From: Sphingopyxis sp. KK2
GTDB taxonomy: Bacteria > Pseudomonadota > Alphaproteobacteria > Sphingomonadales > Sphingomonadaceae
Direction: 5' to 3'
Length of the DNA: 64,000 nucleotides
Assembly (NCBI RefSeq): GCF_001990265.1
Contig: NZ_LYVN01000002.1
Coordinates: 1-64,000, forward strand
In this document: one piece after another, positions 3,867 through 59,292 of the stretch
How the letters are laid out: the number at the start of each line of letters is the position of its first letter
Position numbering within the stretch: position 1 is the first letter of the stretch
Made by a program: the position numbers and the translations under genes
Notes under the pieces: model-generated
Seen by the model: only the letters and a program-made list of their open reading frames with translations
Databases searched by the model: none
What the model was told of the DNA's origin: nothing

Positions 3867-4673
3867 TCAGATCAGTTCGATGCGATCGAGGCCATAGGGG
3901 GCCAGGATCGCCAGCGGCGGCGGCGGGCGATCGTCGCTGCGCGTGAACACTGCGATGCCCGGCGCTGCCGCTTGTGGCCAAGGTTGACCATCGGTGAGGT
4001 AAGCGATGCGGCGCGCGATGCCCTCGGCGCCGTCGATCAGGCGGACTTCGGGACCCACTTCGGCCTGCAATTCGTCGGCGAGCAGCGGGAAGTGGGTGCA
4101 GGCGAGGACGACGACGTCGAGCCGGTCGCCGCCCGGCTGGTCGCGTAGCCCGGCGATGGCGCGCGCGATCACCGCCGGATCGACGGGCTCGCCGCGCAGC
4201 TTGGCCTCGGCGCCGGTGACGAGACCGGGGCTGCCGTGGCGCAGCACGGTCTTGCCTGCGGCGAAGCGTGCGGAGAGGTCGTCGACATAGGGCTGGCGCA
4301 CCGTCGCCTCGGTGCCGAGCACGCCGATGACGCCGGTCCTGGTGAGTTCGGCGGCGGGTTTGATCGCCGGCACAGTGCCGACGATCGGCAGGTCGAGCGC
4401 GGCGCGGACGTGCGTCAGGGCGATCGTCGAGGCGGTGTTGCACGCGATCACCGCGAGCCGCGGCTGGTAACGCTCGACGAGCCGGCCGAGCAGCGCGGGC
4501 ACGCGTGCGGCCAGTTCGGCCTCGCTCTTCTGGCCATAGGGCAGGCCCGCATAGTCGGCGGCATAGACAATCGGCGCGGTCGGCAGCAGCGCGCGGGTCG
4601 GCCCGAGTACGGTGAGCCCGCCGAGGCCGGAGTCGAAGAAAAGGATCGGGGCGTCGGCGTTCGGGGTTGGCAT
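3867..4673 (-). CDS. murI: glutamate racemase
   Basis: A 268-residue cofactor-independent racemase that supplies D-glutamate for peptidoglycan. The two catalytic cysteines are visible: C78 in VIACNTAST and C192 in LACTHFPLL; the N-terminal FFDSGLGGLTV carries the conserved Asp-Ser pair. I prefer ATG at 4673 because the protein then begins just before the first beta strand; an in-frame ATG at 4745 would add 24 basic residues with no family counterpart. No strong Shine-Dalgarno site precedes either. It is transcribed divergently from plsY. Confidence 0.92.
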   Translation of the reverse strand: MPTPNADAPILFFDSGLGGLTVLGPTRALLPTAPIVYAADYAGLPYGQKSEAELAARVPALLGRLVERYQPRLAVIACNTASTIALTHVRAALDLPIVGTVPAIKPAAELTRTGVIGVLGTEATVRQPYVDDLSARFAAGKTVLRHGSPGLVTGAEAKLRGEPVDPAVIARAIAGLRDQPGGDRLDVVVLACTHFPLLADELQAEVGPEVRLIDGAEGIARRIAYLTDGQPWPQAAAPGIAVFTRSDDRPPPPLAILAPYGLDRIELI

Positions 4674-4809
4674 GGTGGCGCCGTAGCAGCGGCGGCGGGG
4701 CCGCTCAATGGGCGCCACGAGTTTGTCCGATTTGGCAGTCACCATGCGCGAATGCGTTGATTGCCGCGCTTAATGCCGCCACATAGGCGCAAAGGGAGCA
4801 GGGAGCCAC

Positions 4810-5412
4810 ATGACGACATATTTGCTGATCGCGGCGGGGTATCTGCTCGGATCGATCCCGTTCGGGGTGATCCTGACGCGCGCCTTTGGCGCGGGCGACC
4901 TGCGCCAGATCGGATCGGGCAATATCGGCGCGACCAATGTGCTGCGCACCGGGCGCAAGGGCCTTGCGGCGGCGACGCTGATCCTCGACGGCGCGAAGGG
5001 CGCGGCCGCGGTGCTGCTCGCGCGGCATTTCTTCCCCGAAACGGGCGATCATGGCGCGATGGTCGCGGGCGCGGCGGCGATGATCGGCCATTGCTATCCG
5101 GTCTGGCTGAAGTTCAAGGGCGGCAAGGGCGTCGCGACCTTGCTCGGCCTGTCGATCGCGCTCGCCTGGCCGATCGGGGCGATTTTCGCGGCGGTGTGGC
5201 TCGCTGCGGTGCTGTTGCTGCGCATCTCGTCGCTCGGCGGGATGCTGGGGGCGATCGCGGCGCCGGTTGCGGCGCTGGCGCTCGGCTATCCCGTTTATGC
5301 GATCGGCCTTGCGGGGCTCGCGATCATCGTGTTGTGGCGCCACCGCGAGAATATCGCGCGGCTGCGCGCCGGCACCGAGCCGCGCGTCGGCGCCAAGAAG
5401 GCGCCTGAATGA
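4810..5412 (+). CDS. plsY: acyl-phosphate:glycerol-3-phosphate acyltransferase PlsY
   Basis: A 200-residue integral inner-membrane enzyme that acylates glycerol-3-phosphate from acyl-phosphate, giving lysophosphatidic acid for phospholipid synthesis. The three cytoplasmic family motifs are seen: LLGSIPFGVIL near residue 13, GSGNIGATNVLRTGRKG at ~36-52, and LKFKGGKGVAT at ~100-110. Hydrophobic stretches fit the usual seven transmembrane segments. A GGGAGC site stands before the ATG. The stop overlaps the dprA start by ATGA, so plsY and dprA are translationally coupled. Confidence 0.95.
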   Translation: MTTYLLIAAGYLLGSIPFGVILTRAFGAGDLRQIGSGNIGATNVLRTGRKGLAAATLILDGAKGAAAVLLARHFFPETGDHGAMVAGAAAMIGHCYPVWLKFKGGKGVATLLGLSIALAWPIGAIFAAVWLAAVLLLRISSLGGMLGAIAAPVAALALGYPVYAIGLAGLAIIVLWRHRENIARLRAGTEPRVGAKKAPE

Positions 5413-6494
5413 CCGATGCCGAAAGGCTGGCGCGGCTGCGGCTCATCCGCACGCCGCATGTCGGCCCGGTCAGCTGGCACCAGCTGATGGCGCGTTTCGG
5501 GTCGGGCGAGGCGGCGCTTGCGGCACTTCCCGACCTCGTGCTGCGCGGCGGTGCGGGCCGCGCCCGCATCGCGCCGGCCGAAATCGCCGAGCGCGAGATC
5601 GAACGCGTCGCGGCGCTCGGCGCGCGGCACGTCTTCAGTGACGAGCCGGACTATTCGCCGCTGATGCGCGAGGTCGAGGGGGCGCCGCCGGTGGTCATCG
5701 TTCGCGGCGACACCGCGATGCTCCGGCGGCCGTGCGTCGCGATCGTCGGCGCGCGCAATGCCTCGGCCGTCGCGTGCCGCTTTGCGCGCCAGATGGCGGC
5801 AGACCTTGCGGCGCGCGATGTAACGGTGGTCAGCGGGCTGGCGCGCGGGGTCGACACCGCCGCGCATGTCGGAGCGCTCGGCGGGCGCACCGCCGCGGTG
5901 ATCGCGAGTGGGATCGACATCGCCTTTCCGCCCGAAAATGCCGCCTTGCAGGAAAAGCTCGGGGCCGACCAGTTGCTGATCGCCGAGCAGCCGCCGGGCA
6001 CCGAACCGCTCGCGCGTCATTTCCCGTCGCGCAACCGGATCATCGCCGGGCTGTCGCACGGGACATTGGTGATCGAGGCGGCGCCCAAATCGGGGTCGCT
6101 GATCACCGCGCGCCGCGCCGGCGACTATGGGCGCGAGGTGATGGCGGTGCCCGGATCGCCGCTCGATCCGCGCGCGCAGGGTTGCAACCTGCTGATCCGC
6201 GAGGGCGCGACCCTGATCCAGACCGTCGACGATGTGCTCGAGGCGCTCGGCCCGATCGACGCGCGCATGGTCCGCGAACCGGCACGCGCCTATGTCCCGA
6301 CGCCCGCAGTGCCCGATGCGGGGGAGGGCGAACGGCGCCATATCGTCGAACTGCTTGGCCCGACCCCGGTCGCGATCGACGAACTGGTGCGCCAGTCGGG
6401 GTGCACCGCCGCAACGGTGCAGCTGGTGTTGCTCGAACTCGAGCTGGCGGGGCGGGTCGAGCGCCATGCGGGGGCAAAGATTTCGCGGCTGTGA
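5409..6494 (+). CDS. dprA: DNA-processing protein DprA
   Basis: A 361-residue DprA/Smf protein, which loads RecA on incoming single-stranded DNA in natural transformation. The Rossmann-like core is clear: VAIVGARNAS (~112-121), VVSGLARGVDTAAH (~138-151), FPPENAALQ, FPSRNRIIAGLSHGTLVIEA (~204-223) and the CNLLIREGA segment. The C-terminal ~60 residues form a winged-helix domain, as is common outside Firmicutes. It is coupled to plsY by a 4-base overlap. Presence of dprA does not by itself prove competence. Confidence 0.93.
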   Translation: MTDAERLARLRLIRTPHVGPVSWHQLMARFGSGEAALAALPDLVLRGGAGRARIAPAEIAEREIERVAALGARHVFSDEPDYSPLMREVEGAPPVVIVRGDTAMLRRPCVAIVGARNASAVACRFARQMAADLAARDVTVVSGLARGVDTAAHVGALGGRTAAVIASGIDIAFPPENAALQEKLGADQLLIAEQPPGTEPLARHFPSRNRIIAGLSHGTLVIEAAPKSGSLITARRAGDYGREVMAVPGSPLDPRAQGCNLLIREGATLIQTVDDVLEALGPIDARMVREPARAYVPTPAVPDAGEGERRHIVELLGPTPVAIDELVRQSGCTAATVQLVLLELELAGRVERHAGAKISRL

Positions 6495-55810: not shown

Positions 55811-57145
55811 ATGCAATCACGAGTGAAGTTCGGGACTTTTCTGCGGCGAATCGCGTTTGGCGGAACCGCGCTTCTGGCGGTCGCGGCGCCGCCTGCGCAG
55901 GCGCAGGACGCCAGCGGCAAGACGGTCATCACCGCCGCGCGCTATGTCGACGTGCTGACCGGCAAGACGGTCGATTATCCTGCGATCTTCGTCGGCGCCG
56001 ACGGCCGCATCACCGGCATTGCGGACTCGCGTACGGTGCGCTGGGGATCGGACGTCAAGCATATCGACCTCGGCAACCGGACGCTGTTGCCCGGCCTGAT
56101 CGACATGCATGTCCATATCGACGGTCCCGCCGACATTGGCGGCTATAACGGCCTCGAATTCACCGACAGCTTCTGGGGCATGACTGCGGTCAAGAATGCG
56201 CGCGACATGCTCGATGCGGGTTTCACGACGATCCGCAACGTCGGCTCGTCGGAACGCAACGACATCGGGCTCAAGCAGGCGATCGATGCGGGGTACGCTG
56301 TCGGGCCGCGGATCATCGGCGCGGGCTATGCGCTCGGCGCGACCGGCGGGCACTGCGATTCGACCTTCTTCCCGCCGAGCTTCGAAAAGGACAATGCGAA
56401 GAAGGAAGGCATCGGCGATACCCCCGACGAGCTGCGCTACCAGGTCCGCCGCCAGCGCAAATATGGCGCCGAGGTGATCAAGGTCTGCGCGACGGGCGGC
56501 GTCTTTTCGCGCAACACCGAACCCGGCCAGTTGCAGGTTCCCGAGAATGAGCTGCGCGCCATCGCCGACGAGGCGCATCAATGGGGGCTGCAGGTCGCGG
56601 CGCATGCGCATGGCGCATCGGGCATCCGCGCCGCGATCGCGGCGGGCATCGACACGATCGAGCATGCCAGCCTGGTCGACGACGAGGGCATCCGCATGGC
56701 GGTCGCGCGCAAGCGTCCGGTGTGGTTCTCGATGGATATCTACAACACCGACTACACCCAGTCCGAGGGCGCGAAGAATGGCGTGCTCGAGGATAACCTG
56801 CGCAAGGACCGCGAGATCGCACAGATCCAGCGCGACAATTTCCGCAAGGCGCACAAGGCCGGCGTGCGCATGGTGTTCGGCAGCGACGCGGGCGTGATGC
56901 CGCACGGGCTGGTCGGCGGCCAGTTCAAGATCATGGTCCAGTACGGGATGACCCCGCTCGAGGCGATCCAGGCGGCGACGCGCAACGCGGCGCAGGCGCT
57001 CGACCGCGAAAAGGACGTCGGCGCGATCGCGGTCGGCCGCTACGCCGACATCATCGCGGTCGACGGCGACCCGCTCGCCGATGTGCGCGAGCTCGAAAGC
57101 GTCGATGCGGTGGTCAAGGGCGGGGTGCTGGTCAAGGGCAGCTGA
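55811..57145 (+). CDS. exported amidohydrolase-family metallohydrolase
   Basis: A 444-residue secreted member of the amidohydrolase superfamily. Residues 1-33 are a long signal peptide ending AQA. Metal ligands: HVH in LIDMHVHID (~97-105), a carboxylated lysine in AEVIKVCATGG (~217-227), histidines in VAAHAHGASG and IEHASL, and aspartate in FGSDAGVM. Relatives are Xaa-Pro or Xaa-Arg peptidases and organophosphate-type hydrolases; substrate unknown. It stands 25 bases upstream of the tape-measure-like gene on the same strand. Confidence 0.88.
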   Translation: MQSRVKFGTFLRRIAFGGTALLAVAAPPAQAQDASGKTVITAARYVDVLTGKTVDYPAIFVGADGRITGIADSRTVRWGSDVKHIDLGNRTLLPGLIDMHVHIDGPADIGGYNGLEFTDSFWGMTAVKNARDMLDAGFTTIRNVGSSERNDIGLKQAIDAGYAVGPRIIGAGYALGATGGHCDSTFFPPSFEKDNAKKEGIGDTPDELRYQVRRQRKYGAEVIKVCATGGVFSRNTEPGQLQVPENELRAIADEAHQWGLQVAAHAHGASGIRAAIAAGIDTIEHASLVDDEGIRMAVARKRPVWFSMDIYNTDYTQSEGAKNGVLEDNLRKDREIAQIQRDNFRKAHKAGVRMVFGSDAGVMPHGLVGGQFKIMVQYGMTPLEAIQAATRNAAQALDREKDVGAIAVGRYADIIAVDGDPLADVRELESVDAVVKGGVLVKGS

Positions 57146-57170
57146 CGCGCGCCGGCCGGGGAGACAGGGT

Positions 57171-57698
57171 GTGACCGAGGCCGACGACACGCGCTATATC
57201 GGCAATGCCGGGCTGGTCCTGTTCAACCCCTATTTGCCGATGCTTTTCGAGCGGCTGGGCTTGCTGGCGCGCGGCGACGACGGCCGACCCCGGATCGACG
57301 GGATCGAAGCCCGGTCGCGCGCGGTGCATTTGCTCCAATATCTGGTCGATGGACGCACCGACCGGCCCGAACCCGAGCTGGTGCTCAACAAGGCGCTGGC
57401 CGGGATCGCGATCGATGCGCCGGTGGCACCGTCGATCACGCCGACGATGGCCGAGCAGGAGATTTGCGACGCCTTGCTCCTCGCGGTCATTGCCAACTGG
57501 TCGGCGGTCGGGATCGTATCGGCCGAGAGCCTGCGCGAGACATTCCTCCAGCGCGAGGGTAGGCTTCGGCATGCCGAGGGGCGCTGGATGTTACAGGTCC
57601 AGCGCAAGACCATCGACGTGCTGGTCGACCAGGTGCCATGGAGTTTCTCGCTCATCCACCACCACTGGATGGACGAGCCTGTGCAGGTGAGTTGGTAA
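57171..57698 (+). CDS. standalone protein resembling the C-terminal domain of CIS tape-measure proteins
   Basis: A 175-residue protein starting with GTG at 57171 behind GGGGAG. Its body matches, from memory, the conserved C-terminal region of the contractile injection system tape-measure family: NAGLVLFNPYLPMLFERLGL (~11-30), RAVHLLQYLVDGR (~48-60), ELVLNKALAGI (~69-79), LRETFLQREGRL (~124-135), then QVQRKTIDVLVDQVPWSFS and HHWMDEPVQVSW at the end. In CIS loci this domain ends a far longer protein beside sheath, tube and baseplate genes. None of those is present here, so its role is unknown. It may be cotranscribed with the amidohydrolase gene. Confidence 0.72.
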   Translation: MTEADDTRYIGNAGLVLFNPYLPMLFERLGLLARGDDGRPRIDGIEARSRAVHLLQYLVDGRTDRPEPELVLNKALAGIAIDAPVAPSITPTMAEQEICDALLLAVIANWSAVGIVSAESLRETFLQREGRLRHAEGRWMLQVQRKTIDVLVDQVPWSFSLIHHHWMDEPVQVSW

Positions 57699-57706
57699 GG
57701 CGGCGC

Positions 57707-58486
57707 CTAGGCGACCAGCTTGTTGACCATCGCCTCGTGCATTTCGGGGGTCAGGTTCAGCACCACCTCGGCATAGGTCGCGATGTCGCCATGGTCGCGG
57801 CGGACGGTCGACAGCGCGGCGTCGAGGAAGATCGGGTTGACCGACATCAGCGTGCGGATCGCGTCGTCGGGAATTTCGGCATTGTAGCGCGCGCGGATGA
57901 CGTCGCCGCCCTGCGCGATCCGCTCCTCGATCTTGCCCGCGCTGTTGGTGAGCAGATAGTCCTGCATCAGGTCGTCTTCATGGACGCCGAGCAGCCGGTG
58001 AACGATCGCCACCGCAAAGCCGGTGCGGTCCTTGCCCGCGACGCAGTGGACGAGGCTCGGCGCGTCATATTCGGCGAGCGCGGCAAGATAGAGCCGCAGC
58101 GTGTTCACCAGCACCGGGCGGTACGGCATGCCGGCATAGGTATCGATCATCCGCGCGCGCGCAGTCTCATTGTCGATCGTTCCCTTTGCAGCCTGCAGAT
58201 GCGGGGCGAGGCCGGCGGTATTGCCGTCGGCGAACAGCACCCGCGCCGAAAAGCCGTCGGACCTTTTGCACGGATGCGCCGCGCGCTCGTCGTCGCCGCG
58301 CAGGTCGATGATCGTCTCGATCCCCAGCGCGTCGATGGCGTCGAGGTCGGCGGGGCTCGCATCCTGGTGATGCGCCGAGCGCCACAGCATCCCGCTGCGC
58401 AGCTTGCCGCCGCCTTCGACGTCATAGCCGCCATAGTCGCGGAAATTGTGGATGCCGGACAGCGGCACGACGCGCTCGGCGAGCAT
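57707..58486 (-). CDS. tyrosine phosphatase family protein
   Basis: A 259-residue protein of the Y-phosphatase 3 (lipid/dual-specificity) type. Active site HCVAGKDRTGFA with C148 and R154, and an N-terminal GIHNFRDYGGY typical of the group (PtpB-like; in some members lipid phosphatase). The ATG at 58486 has AGGAGA upstream. It lies 2 bases after the crotonase stop on the same strand and so is part of that operon. Confidence 0.85.
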   Translation of the reverse strand: MLAERVVPLSGIHNFRDYGGYDVEGGGKLRSGMLWRSAHHQDASPADLDAIDALGIETIIDLRGDDERAAHPCKRSDGFSARVLFADGNTAGLAPHLQAAKGTIDNETARARMIDTYAGMPYRPVLVNTLRLYLAALAEYDAPSLVHCVAGKDRTGFAVAIVHRLLGVHEDDLMQDYLLTNSAGKIEERIAQGGDVIRARYNAEIPDDAIRTLMSVNPIFLDAALSTVRRDHGDIATYAEVVLNLTPEMHEAMVNKLVA

Positions 58487-58488
58487 GG

Positions 58489-59292
58489 TCAGTCTCCTGT
58501 GAAGATGGGGGGGCGTTTTTCGACAAAGGCGTTGATCGCCTCGCGGTTGTCGGCGGTTTCGTGGACGATAGCCTGATAGGCGGCGCTGAGTTCGAGGATG
58601 TCGCTCATCCGGCTGTGCTGCGCTTCGCGAAGCAGCCGCTTGGTGAGCCGCAGCGCGCGCGGCGGGTTGCACACGATGCGGTCGGCGATCGCGATCGCGC
58701 GGTCGAGCAGTTCTTCATCGGGGACGACTTCGGTGACGAGGCCATATTCCTTGGCCTGCGCCGCGTCGAAGCGGTCGCCGGTCAGGAACAGTTCGGCGGC
58801 GCGCGGGTAGCCGAGGATTTTCTGGAGCAACCAGGCGCCGCCGTCGCCGGGGACGATCCCGACCTTGATGAAGCTGCACGCGAATTTGGCGCTTGTCGCG
58901 GCGATGCGGATGTCGCAGGTGCAGGCGAGGTCGGCGCCGAGGCCGATGGCATGGCCGTTGACCGCCGCGATCATCGGGATCTCGCAATCCATCAGCGCGC
59001 GGATCACCGCCTGCACGCCGCGGCGATAATTGGCGCGCGTCGAATCGGGCTGGTCGAGCACGCCGATGCCGGTGCGGTCCTGCATGCCCTTCAAATTGCC
59101 GCCGGCGCTGAACGCCTTGCCGCTGCCGGTCAGGATGATCGCGCTGATGCCGCGGTCGGCGCCCAGTTCGCGCATCGTGTCGATGATGTCGTCGCAATCC
59201 TCGTGGGTGCCGATCGCATTCATGCTCTCGGGCTTGATCATCGTCAGGATCGCGATCTTGCCGCGCCGCTCGACGCTCAGAAATTCGCCCAT
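58489..59292 (-). CDS. enoyl-CoA hydratase/isomerase (crotonase) family protein
   Basis: A 267-residue crotonase. The oxyanion-hole segments are KAFSAGGNLKGM (~58-69) and VNGHAIGLGADLACTCD (~111-127, core). The position of the hydratase acid (usually E in the KVGIVPGDGG stretch) is Gly-Asp, so hydratase activity may be altered and another crotonase reaction is possible. It lies 55 bases after the CaiB-type gene and 2 bases before the phosphatase gene. Confidence 0.88.
   Translation of the reverse strand: MGEFLSVERRGKIAILTMIKPESMNAIGTHEDCDDIIDTMRELGADRGISAIILTGSGKAFSAGGNLKGMQDRTGIGVLDQPDSTRANYRRGVQAVIRALMDCEIPMIAAVNGHAIGLGADLACTCDIRIAATSAKFACSFIKVGIVPGDGGAWLLQKILGYPRAAELFLTGDRFDAAQAKEYGLVTEVVPDEELLDRAIAIADRIVCNPPRALRLTKRLLREAQHSRMSDILELSAAYQAIVHETADNREAINAFVEKRPPIFTGD

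Follow-up and report, generated by a model that had tools for sequence, protein, structure and literature searches.

The window analyzed here, the whole stretch formed by the first 64,000 nucleotides of contig NZ_LYVN01000002.1 of Sphingopyxis sp. KK2, carries a short open reading frame whose product resembles the end of the tape-measure proteins of contractile injection systems (CIS). It lies between an amidohydrolase gene and a phosphatase-like gene, and this raises the question of what a tape-measure end that is encoded on its own is doing there. An earlier note, made from the sequence alone, had offered three options: an orphan remnant, a component of a distant CIS, or a domain reused for another purpose.

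The gene and its product

The open reading frame at 57171-57698 starts with GTG at 57171, ends with TAA at 57696-57698 and encodes 175 amino acids (Table 1). Residues 3-175 were matched to positions 296-463 of the 463 positions of the Pfam profile CIS_TMP (PF19268) with an E-value of 2.7e-62. Because the score is 212 bits at a cut-off of 27.8 and the match is confined to profile positions 296-463, the similarity is beyond chance and covers the C-terminal domain only. The product comprises the whole C-terminal domain of a contractile-injection tape measure, without any further part; the profile search suggested by the earlier note thus confirmed what had been read from the letters. In a profile search of its own genome, the gene is the sole CIS_TMP match. 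NCBIfam and PHROGs gave no match to the product at E-values up to 1, and a search of solved structures by sequence gave no significant one (best E-values 0.59 and 0.97).

With the CIS_TMP tape measures of the Afp14-Pvc14-Cis14 type, the product shares about 170 terminal residues and the conserved motifs. In contrast to them, the N-terminal part and the ruler part are missing, no CIS gene was found on the contig, and no Cis15 ATPase gene follows directly 3′ of the domain as in a Cis14 locus. The first half of a split tape measure is not encoded next to it either, the neighbors being the amidohydrolase and the phosphatase-like gene, and an N-terminal tape-measure half was found nowhere in the genome by a search that was run without positive control. 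Since the product has no ruler part, it is unlikely, judging from its sequence, to set tail length.

The position behind an amidohydrolase, as described in the earlier note, agrees with the NCBIfam name of the left neighbor, Xaa-Pro dipeptidase. The right neighbor was named from its motif HCVAGKDRTG, which we take to be that of a protein-tyrosine-phosphatase-like protein. The gaps are 25 bp to the end of the amidohydrolase gene and 8 bp to the end of the convergent neighbor. The GC3 of the gene is 0.85, that of its neighbors 0.87 and 0.80. No promoter- or terminator-like sites were detected near the gene, which says little, since shuffled sequences likewise gave about none.

Table 1. Coordinates and sources of the gene, its surroundings, the CIS locus of the same genome and the stand-alone copies in other genomes.
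Feature	Position	Strand	Basis or remark
Stand-alone gene of the CIS_TMP C-terminal domain, 175 aa	57171..57698	+	PF19268, conserved positions, predicted fold
Putative Shine-Dalgarno-like site GGGGAG, 7 nt 5′ of GTG	57158..57163	+	Reading of the sequence
Left neighbor, secreted-type amidohydrolase, Xaa-Pro dipeptidase family	55811..57145	+	NF051886 (664 bits), PF01979; 'secreted' is a reading of the N-terminus
Right neighbor, convergent protein-tyrosine-phosphatase-like gene	57707..58672	-	ORF; gene order conserved in relatives
Segment missing at the same site in 20 same-genus genomes	57146..57714	.	Approximate; from the ends of DNA matches
CIS locus split over at least two contigs of the same genome	C21:39156-42709; C177:1-6931		DUF6519-bearing class without CIS_TMP match
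Stand-alone copy L090, Sphingomonas sp. Ant H11			Genome-contig motif scan
Stand-alone copy L092, Granulicella sapmiensis MAG			Genome-contig motif scan
Stand-alone copy L096, Bacteroidetes MAG			Genome-contig motif scan
Stand-alone copy G674, 206 aa, adjoining an FKBP gene			Class sample
Stand-alone copy L119, 171-183 aa depending on the start			Viral-contig scan; apparent bacterial flank of a provirus
Enzymes near the L096 copy: DPP IV with peptidase S51	L096:7180-11324		Proline-/small-peptide enzymes
Enzyme near the G674 copy: FKBP prolyl isomerase	L046:142-654		Proline-/small-peptide enzyme

The AlphaFold2 model of the 175-residue domain is compact, with mixed helices and strands (pLDDT 91.9, pTM 0.88), and the stand-alone domain is predicted to fold by itself. 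The input alignment (A4) comprised 34 sequences, namely the window and 33 of the 34 loci of the genome-contig scan described below, L084 being dropped as near-identical to L082; in alignment A5, L082 was left out in addition. The sequences of G674, G749, Pararhizobium and Azospirillum thermophilum were included in the trees and lay outside the structure predictions. No match to the domain model was found in the fold libraries of PDB and viral models at E-values up to 0.001.

The T3S4 ruler-switch domains of PscP and FliK are, like the CIS_TMP C-terminus, globular C-terminal domains of length rulers. The resemblance of the stand-alone domain to them is weak and within noise. Foldseek placed PscP (5cuk) at rank 10 (E-value 1.3) and FliK (2rrl) at rank 41 (E-value 3.4), neither being significant, and PscP was the only chain with a Z-score of at least 2 among 837 aligned chains (Z 2.5, 62 aligned residues, rmsd 3.6). 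Residues 110-175, folded alone, gave a weaker model than the whole domain (pLDDT 73), for which no row reached a Z-score of 2 and the resemblance to PscP and FliK was not recovered. The corresponding T3S4 Pfam family, which we take to be Flg_hook, is absent from the 13 families listed for 34 members at E-values up to 10, a result limited by the HMMER filters, which discard most very weak matches.

The site in relatives and further stand-alone copies

A DNA search of 41 genomes yielded loci from 24 other genomes of the genus, which were examined at the site. Both neighbors are present in 20 of the 24 loci, all 20 of them without the gene; the other four show one neighbor in the stretch. The DNA matches of the relatives stop at 57123-57157 on the left side and restart at 57702-57728 on the right side, and the DNA between the matched stretches amounts to 5-169 bp in 19 cases and to 611 bp in one (G056), whose genome contains no CIS_TMP match. 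As the neighbors occur together without the gene in 20 genomes of the genus, the gene would, most simply, have been gained in this lineage by a single-gene insertion. Around it, only weak, chance-like repeats were found and no flanking repeats that mark a mobile element. The idea that the gene is left over from a CIS once present at this site found no support, since the site is empty in 20 of 20 genomes and the search for an N-terminal half, run without positive control, gave none.

In the genus, CIS_TMP matches were found in one of 80 genomes, in the family sample in one of 397 and in the class sample in four of 385 (one of them below the cut-off); each count includes the genome of the window, which itself accounts for the match in genus and family. 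E. coli genomes gave no DNA match to the gene. The product had no match in phages, and no match in viral contigs was obtained for the window protein, L092 or A6. A viral or phage origin was rejected on these grounds, the sole viral-contig match being L119, which lies in an apparent bacterial flank.

Scanning genome contigs with two motifs resulted in 34 loci. In 31 of these, the domain closes a longer tape measure or the contig ends inside it, and a CIS-type ATPase is present, the gene of which adjoins the tape measure in 29 loci and lies 4-5 kb further on in the other two. The remaining three (L090, L092, L096) are stand-alone genes of 167-176 codons whose surroundings contain no detected CIS genes. 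Together with the window, L119 and G674, the latter with about 30 extra residues at its start, there are six stand-alone copies in all, and they lie in unrelated neighborhoods. No neighbor or partner gene is common to all six. A convergent gene ends 1-24 bp from the end of four copies (window 8 bp, L119 1 bp, L092 24 bp, G674 4 bp), and not in L090 and L096. In the open-licence PMC literature, no published stand-alone copy was recognized, which is no proof of absence.

The six stand-alone stretches (10-79 kb) were compared with the CIS reference set. Five of them gave no match, and that of G674 gave one weak ATPase match (37 bits), located in a transporter-like gene. Whole-genome searches gave the stand-alone copy as the only CIS_TMP match for the window, G674, L090 and L092; in the L096 genome, a complete tape measure was found in addition, and the contig that carries it also holds one sheath, below the cut-off. 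No sheath was found in the L092 MAG. The L090 genome has one sheath of 370 aa beside tail genes, which are presumably Mu-like. In G674, a sheath-tube pair lies on another contig than the domain (L066/L067, G674:C40:20370-22400), and no other CIS gene was detected on this 26.6 kb contig. The searches, run in part on drafts and MAGs, thus revealed no complete cognate CIS for the window, G674, L090 and L092.

Two observations on the surroundings may be added. Beside the stand-alone domain of L119, a magnesium-chelatase-family gene, which we take to be ComM-like, is cut short next to a serine recombinase gene (L119:2174-4328); this is probably an attachment site. Three of the six copies (window, L096 and G674) lie beside proline-/small-peptide enzymes (Table 1), in the window the left neighbor, probably by chance.

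In the 34 rows that are not stand-alone, 53 columns are at least 80% conserved, and each of these rows keeps 41-53 of them. The window keeps 52, followed by L090 (50), L092 and L119 (49 each), L096 (48) and G674 (39). The nearest relative of the window is a longer tape measure from a Sphingomonas MAG (66% identity). Altogether, five of the six stand-alone genes have their highest identity with a longer tape measure and not with another lone copy: L096 shows 62% to Mucilaginibacter, L092 60% to Myxococcus, L119 60% to Sphingomonas 28-63-12 and L090 53% to a longer tape measure vs. 51% to the window. For G674, a longer tape measure and a stand-alone copy tie at 42%.

In a 40-row tree, the six stand-alone rows require six label changes, and shuffled labels require 5.7 on average; the stand-alone copies therefore do not cluster. 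A single clade of the five first-known copies was rejected (p-AU 0.00026), which supports more than one release of the domain from tape measures. A clade of the window and L090 was not rejected (p 0.446), and one of the window, L090 and L092 was rejected marginally (p 0.043). L119 is included only in the second tree, the AU tests were run without it, and the complete tape measure of the L096 genome was left out of the tree. The starred (well-supported) branches alone do not exclude one origin.

A proposed free-standing module and its alternatives

Lone copies in distantly related bacteria suggest that the domain may be capable of existing without the machine. Of the three options in the earlier note, reuse of the domain fits best, because stand-alone copies occur in five other genomes and in unrelated neighborhoods; this applies to the fact of reuse, and the purpose proposed in the following is conjectural. 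With a probability of roughly 0.5, the domain was freed from tape measures more than once and is kept as a free-standing binding module outside a cognate CIS. This reading is favored because no complete cognate CIS was found in four of the six genomes and no neighbor is common to the copies.

According to this proposal, a gene for the C-terminal domain of a Cis14/Afp14-type tape measure, without the ruler, would have been inserted between the amidohydrolase and the phosphatase-like gene and would have been kept intact in this lineage. Within long tape measures, the end domain is probably a docking domain, either for the hub/spike end or for the ATPase. This guess is based on its position as the last domain with the ATPase gene usually next, on the anchoring of the C-terminus of a tape measure, which may or may not be related to CIS_TMP, on the spike described for the diffocin in the passages of PMC10996793, and on the association of effectors with the particle reported for Pvc15 in part of PMC11495950. 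No role is assigned to the conserved end domain of CIS tape measures in the relevant passages of PMC13277306, PMC12210884, PMC11495950, PMC10996793, PMC6972891 and PMC3542141. A free copy without the ruler would hardly measure length and could bind. Once released, the domain would most likely act as a binding module detached from any cognate CIS, and it would have come to this role more than once; for this, we infer expression of the gene, selection after the release and a binding partner.

A precedent for the reuse of tape-measure parts is given by the tape-measure-related CIS effectors Sle1 and Tme of Streptomyces (passages of PMC13277306). According to the same passages, these are phage-tape-measure-like coiled-coil cargo proteins, with Sle1-like genes in CIS clusters; they may or may not be related to CIS_TMP. 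In a wider form, which is proposed only tentatively, solo Cis14-C would be an autonomous module of at least three phyla that was released more than once and works without a cognate contractile machine. Such modules could be, for instance, free docking or switch domains, or blockers of CIS assembly. In the boldest form of the proposal, the end domain would play in CIS the part that the T3S4 switch domain plays in secretion-system rulers.

A possible, though somewhat doubtful, alternative is a non-functional passenger, i.e., a piece of a tape-measure gene acquired by lateral transfer that is in frame, spans the terminal domain by chance and has not yet decayed. The lack of a partner gene and the rarity of the domain, with one genome in the genus (1 of 80), are consistent with this, and truncations are presumably common in general. 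Moreover, the scans relied on conserved motifs or the family profile, so that decayed copies tend to be missed and intact ones are favored, and a selected stand-alone copy would be indistinguishable from one recently cut from a longer, unsampled gene. A passenger is, however, not easily reconciled with the clean start behind a Shine-Dalgarno-like site, nor with 52 of 53 conserved positions being retained at an identity of 66% to the closest of the relatives compared. Four of the six copies begin in a similar way, 8-16 residues before the NAGL motif, and L119, with its uncertain start, possibly does too. The support for more than one origin also argues against it, and the 25 bp between the genes are too short for any remnant of the ruler part.

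If the stand-alone domain is indeed a functional binding module, parts of tape measures can live outside contractile systems, and the name 'contractile injection system tape measure protein' would wrongly imply a CIS. Being small, confidently predicted by modeling and separable from the machine, the stand-alone copies would offer a direct handle on the end domain. The interest lies in their recurrence, which is invisible from the sequence of the window alone.

CIS genes elsewhere in the genome

The genome of the window is a draft of 320 contigs with an estimated completeness of 99.98%. On the 78,684-base contig of the gene, no CIS genes were found by blastp (E-values up to 1e-3) of ORFs of at least 60 aa vs. 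34 CIS reference proteins, a set without a tape-measure C-terminus. The absence of a CIS locus stated in the earlier note thus holds for the contig and does not extend to the genome, in which sheath, tube and baseplate genes are located on contigs C21 and C177 (Table 1). At the end of C21 lie genes for a sheath and a gp19-type tube, together with an ORF whose match to T4_baseplate is sub-threshold. C177 carries two baseplate-J-like ORFs, one slightly above the Pfam cut-off and one about at it, as well as a 758-aa ORF that matches no Pfam family and the beginning of a gene for a DUF6519 protein. Both pieces are colinear with a single locus of G060, which is a genome of the same genus in one contig; the DNA identity is about 80%. 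By ORF reading, the G060 locus spans about 26 kb, and its Pfam-tested parts are the sheath, an AAA ATPase and a Pvc16_N protein. A search of this locus with a profile of the stand-alone domain found nothing significant.

Further candidates in the genome of the window were rejected. For a second CIS, there is one sheath match only, and the baseplate-J matches are confined to C177. For a cognate Cis15, the Azospirillum ATPase matched three ORFs on C7 and C51, with five matches in total that all fall in its AAA part (residues 252-465, 28-38% identity); these ORFs were taken for other AAA proteins.

That the domain acts in trans and supplies a Cis14 function to the C21/C177 CIS, which would have none of its own, is improbable. 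It would be in line with a genome that has a CIS and no other CIS_TMP match. It would also agree with plasmid NZ_CP029358 of A. thermophilum, on which the C-terminal domain (56% identical to that of the window) is annotated as a gene of its own. Since the annotation divides the tape measure there into two adjoining genes (288 and 267 aa) within a CIS locus (L044:18853-20525), the C-terminal half may be a separate protein. Unlike in the window, the gene directly upstream encodes the N-terminal half and the one directly downstream an ATP-binding protein. Furthermore, pvc14 homologues are often missing from lineage II eCIS according to part of PMC11495950, and the C21/C177 CIS may belong to this lineage. 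Against a trans-acting role, the same CIS class occurs in G041 and G060 of the same genus (sheaths 87% and 78% identical to the own sheath by blastp; colinear locus), and neither genome has a CIS_TMP match anywhere.

Moreover, the relatives of the domain sit in a different CIS class. The sheaths of CIS_TMP-bearing genomes are up to 39% identical to the own sheath, over parts of the sequence (blastp); G866 is the exception, as the one sheath detected in it is of the G060 type. The stand-alone domain accordingly belongs to the tape-measure-bearing CIS class, unlike the C21/C177 CIS, and no sheath, N-terminal half (search without positive control) or clear ATPase of that class was found in the draft genome of the window. 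For the suggested component of a distant CIS, this means that a CIS does exist on C21 and C177, but that its class does without CIS_TMP in G041 and G060.

A misjoining of the domain into the contig by assembly or binning is very improbable: a draft of 320 contigs with CIS pieces also broken across contigs would allow for it, but the flanking DNA on both sides is native and keeps the conserved gene order, the inserted piece forms a complete gene at 25 bp and 8 bp from its neighbors with a codon-position GC that fits the host, and stand-alone copies are present in five other assemblies.

In A. thermophilum, the sheath also seems to be split (ORFs 4456-5364 and 5361-6389), and the splits of tape measure and sheath could be real or frameshifts. 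The Sphingomonas genome 28-63-12 apparently contains both CIS classes, with a G060-type sheath (L115, G866:C32) and a tape-measure locus (L072).
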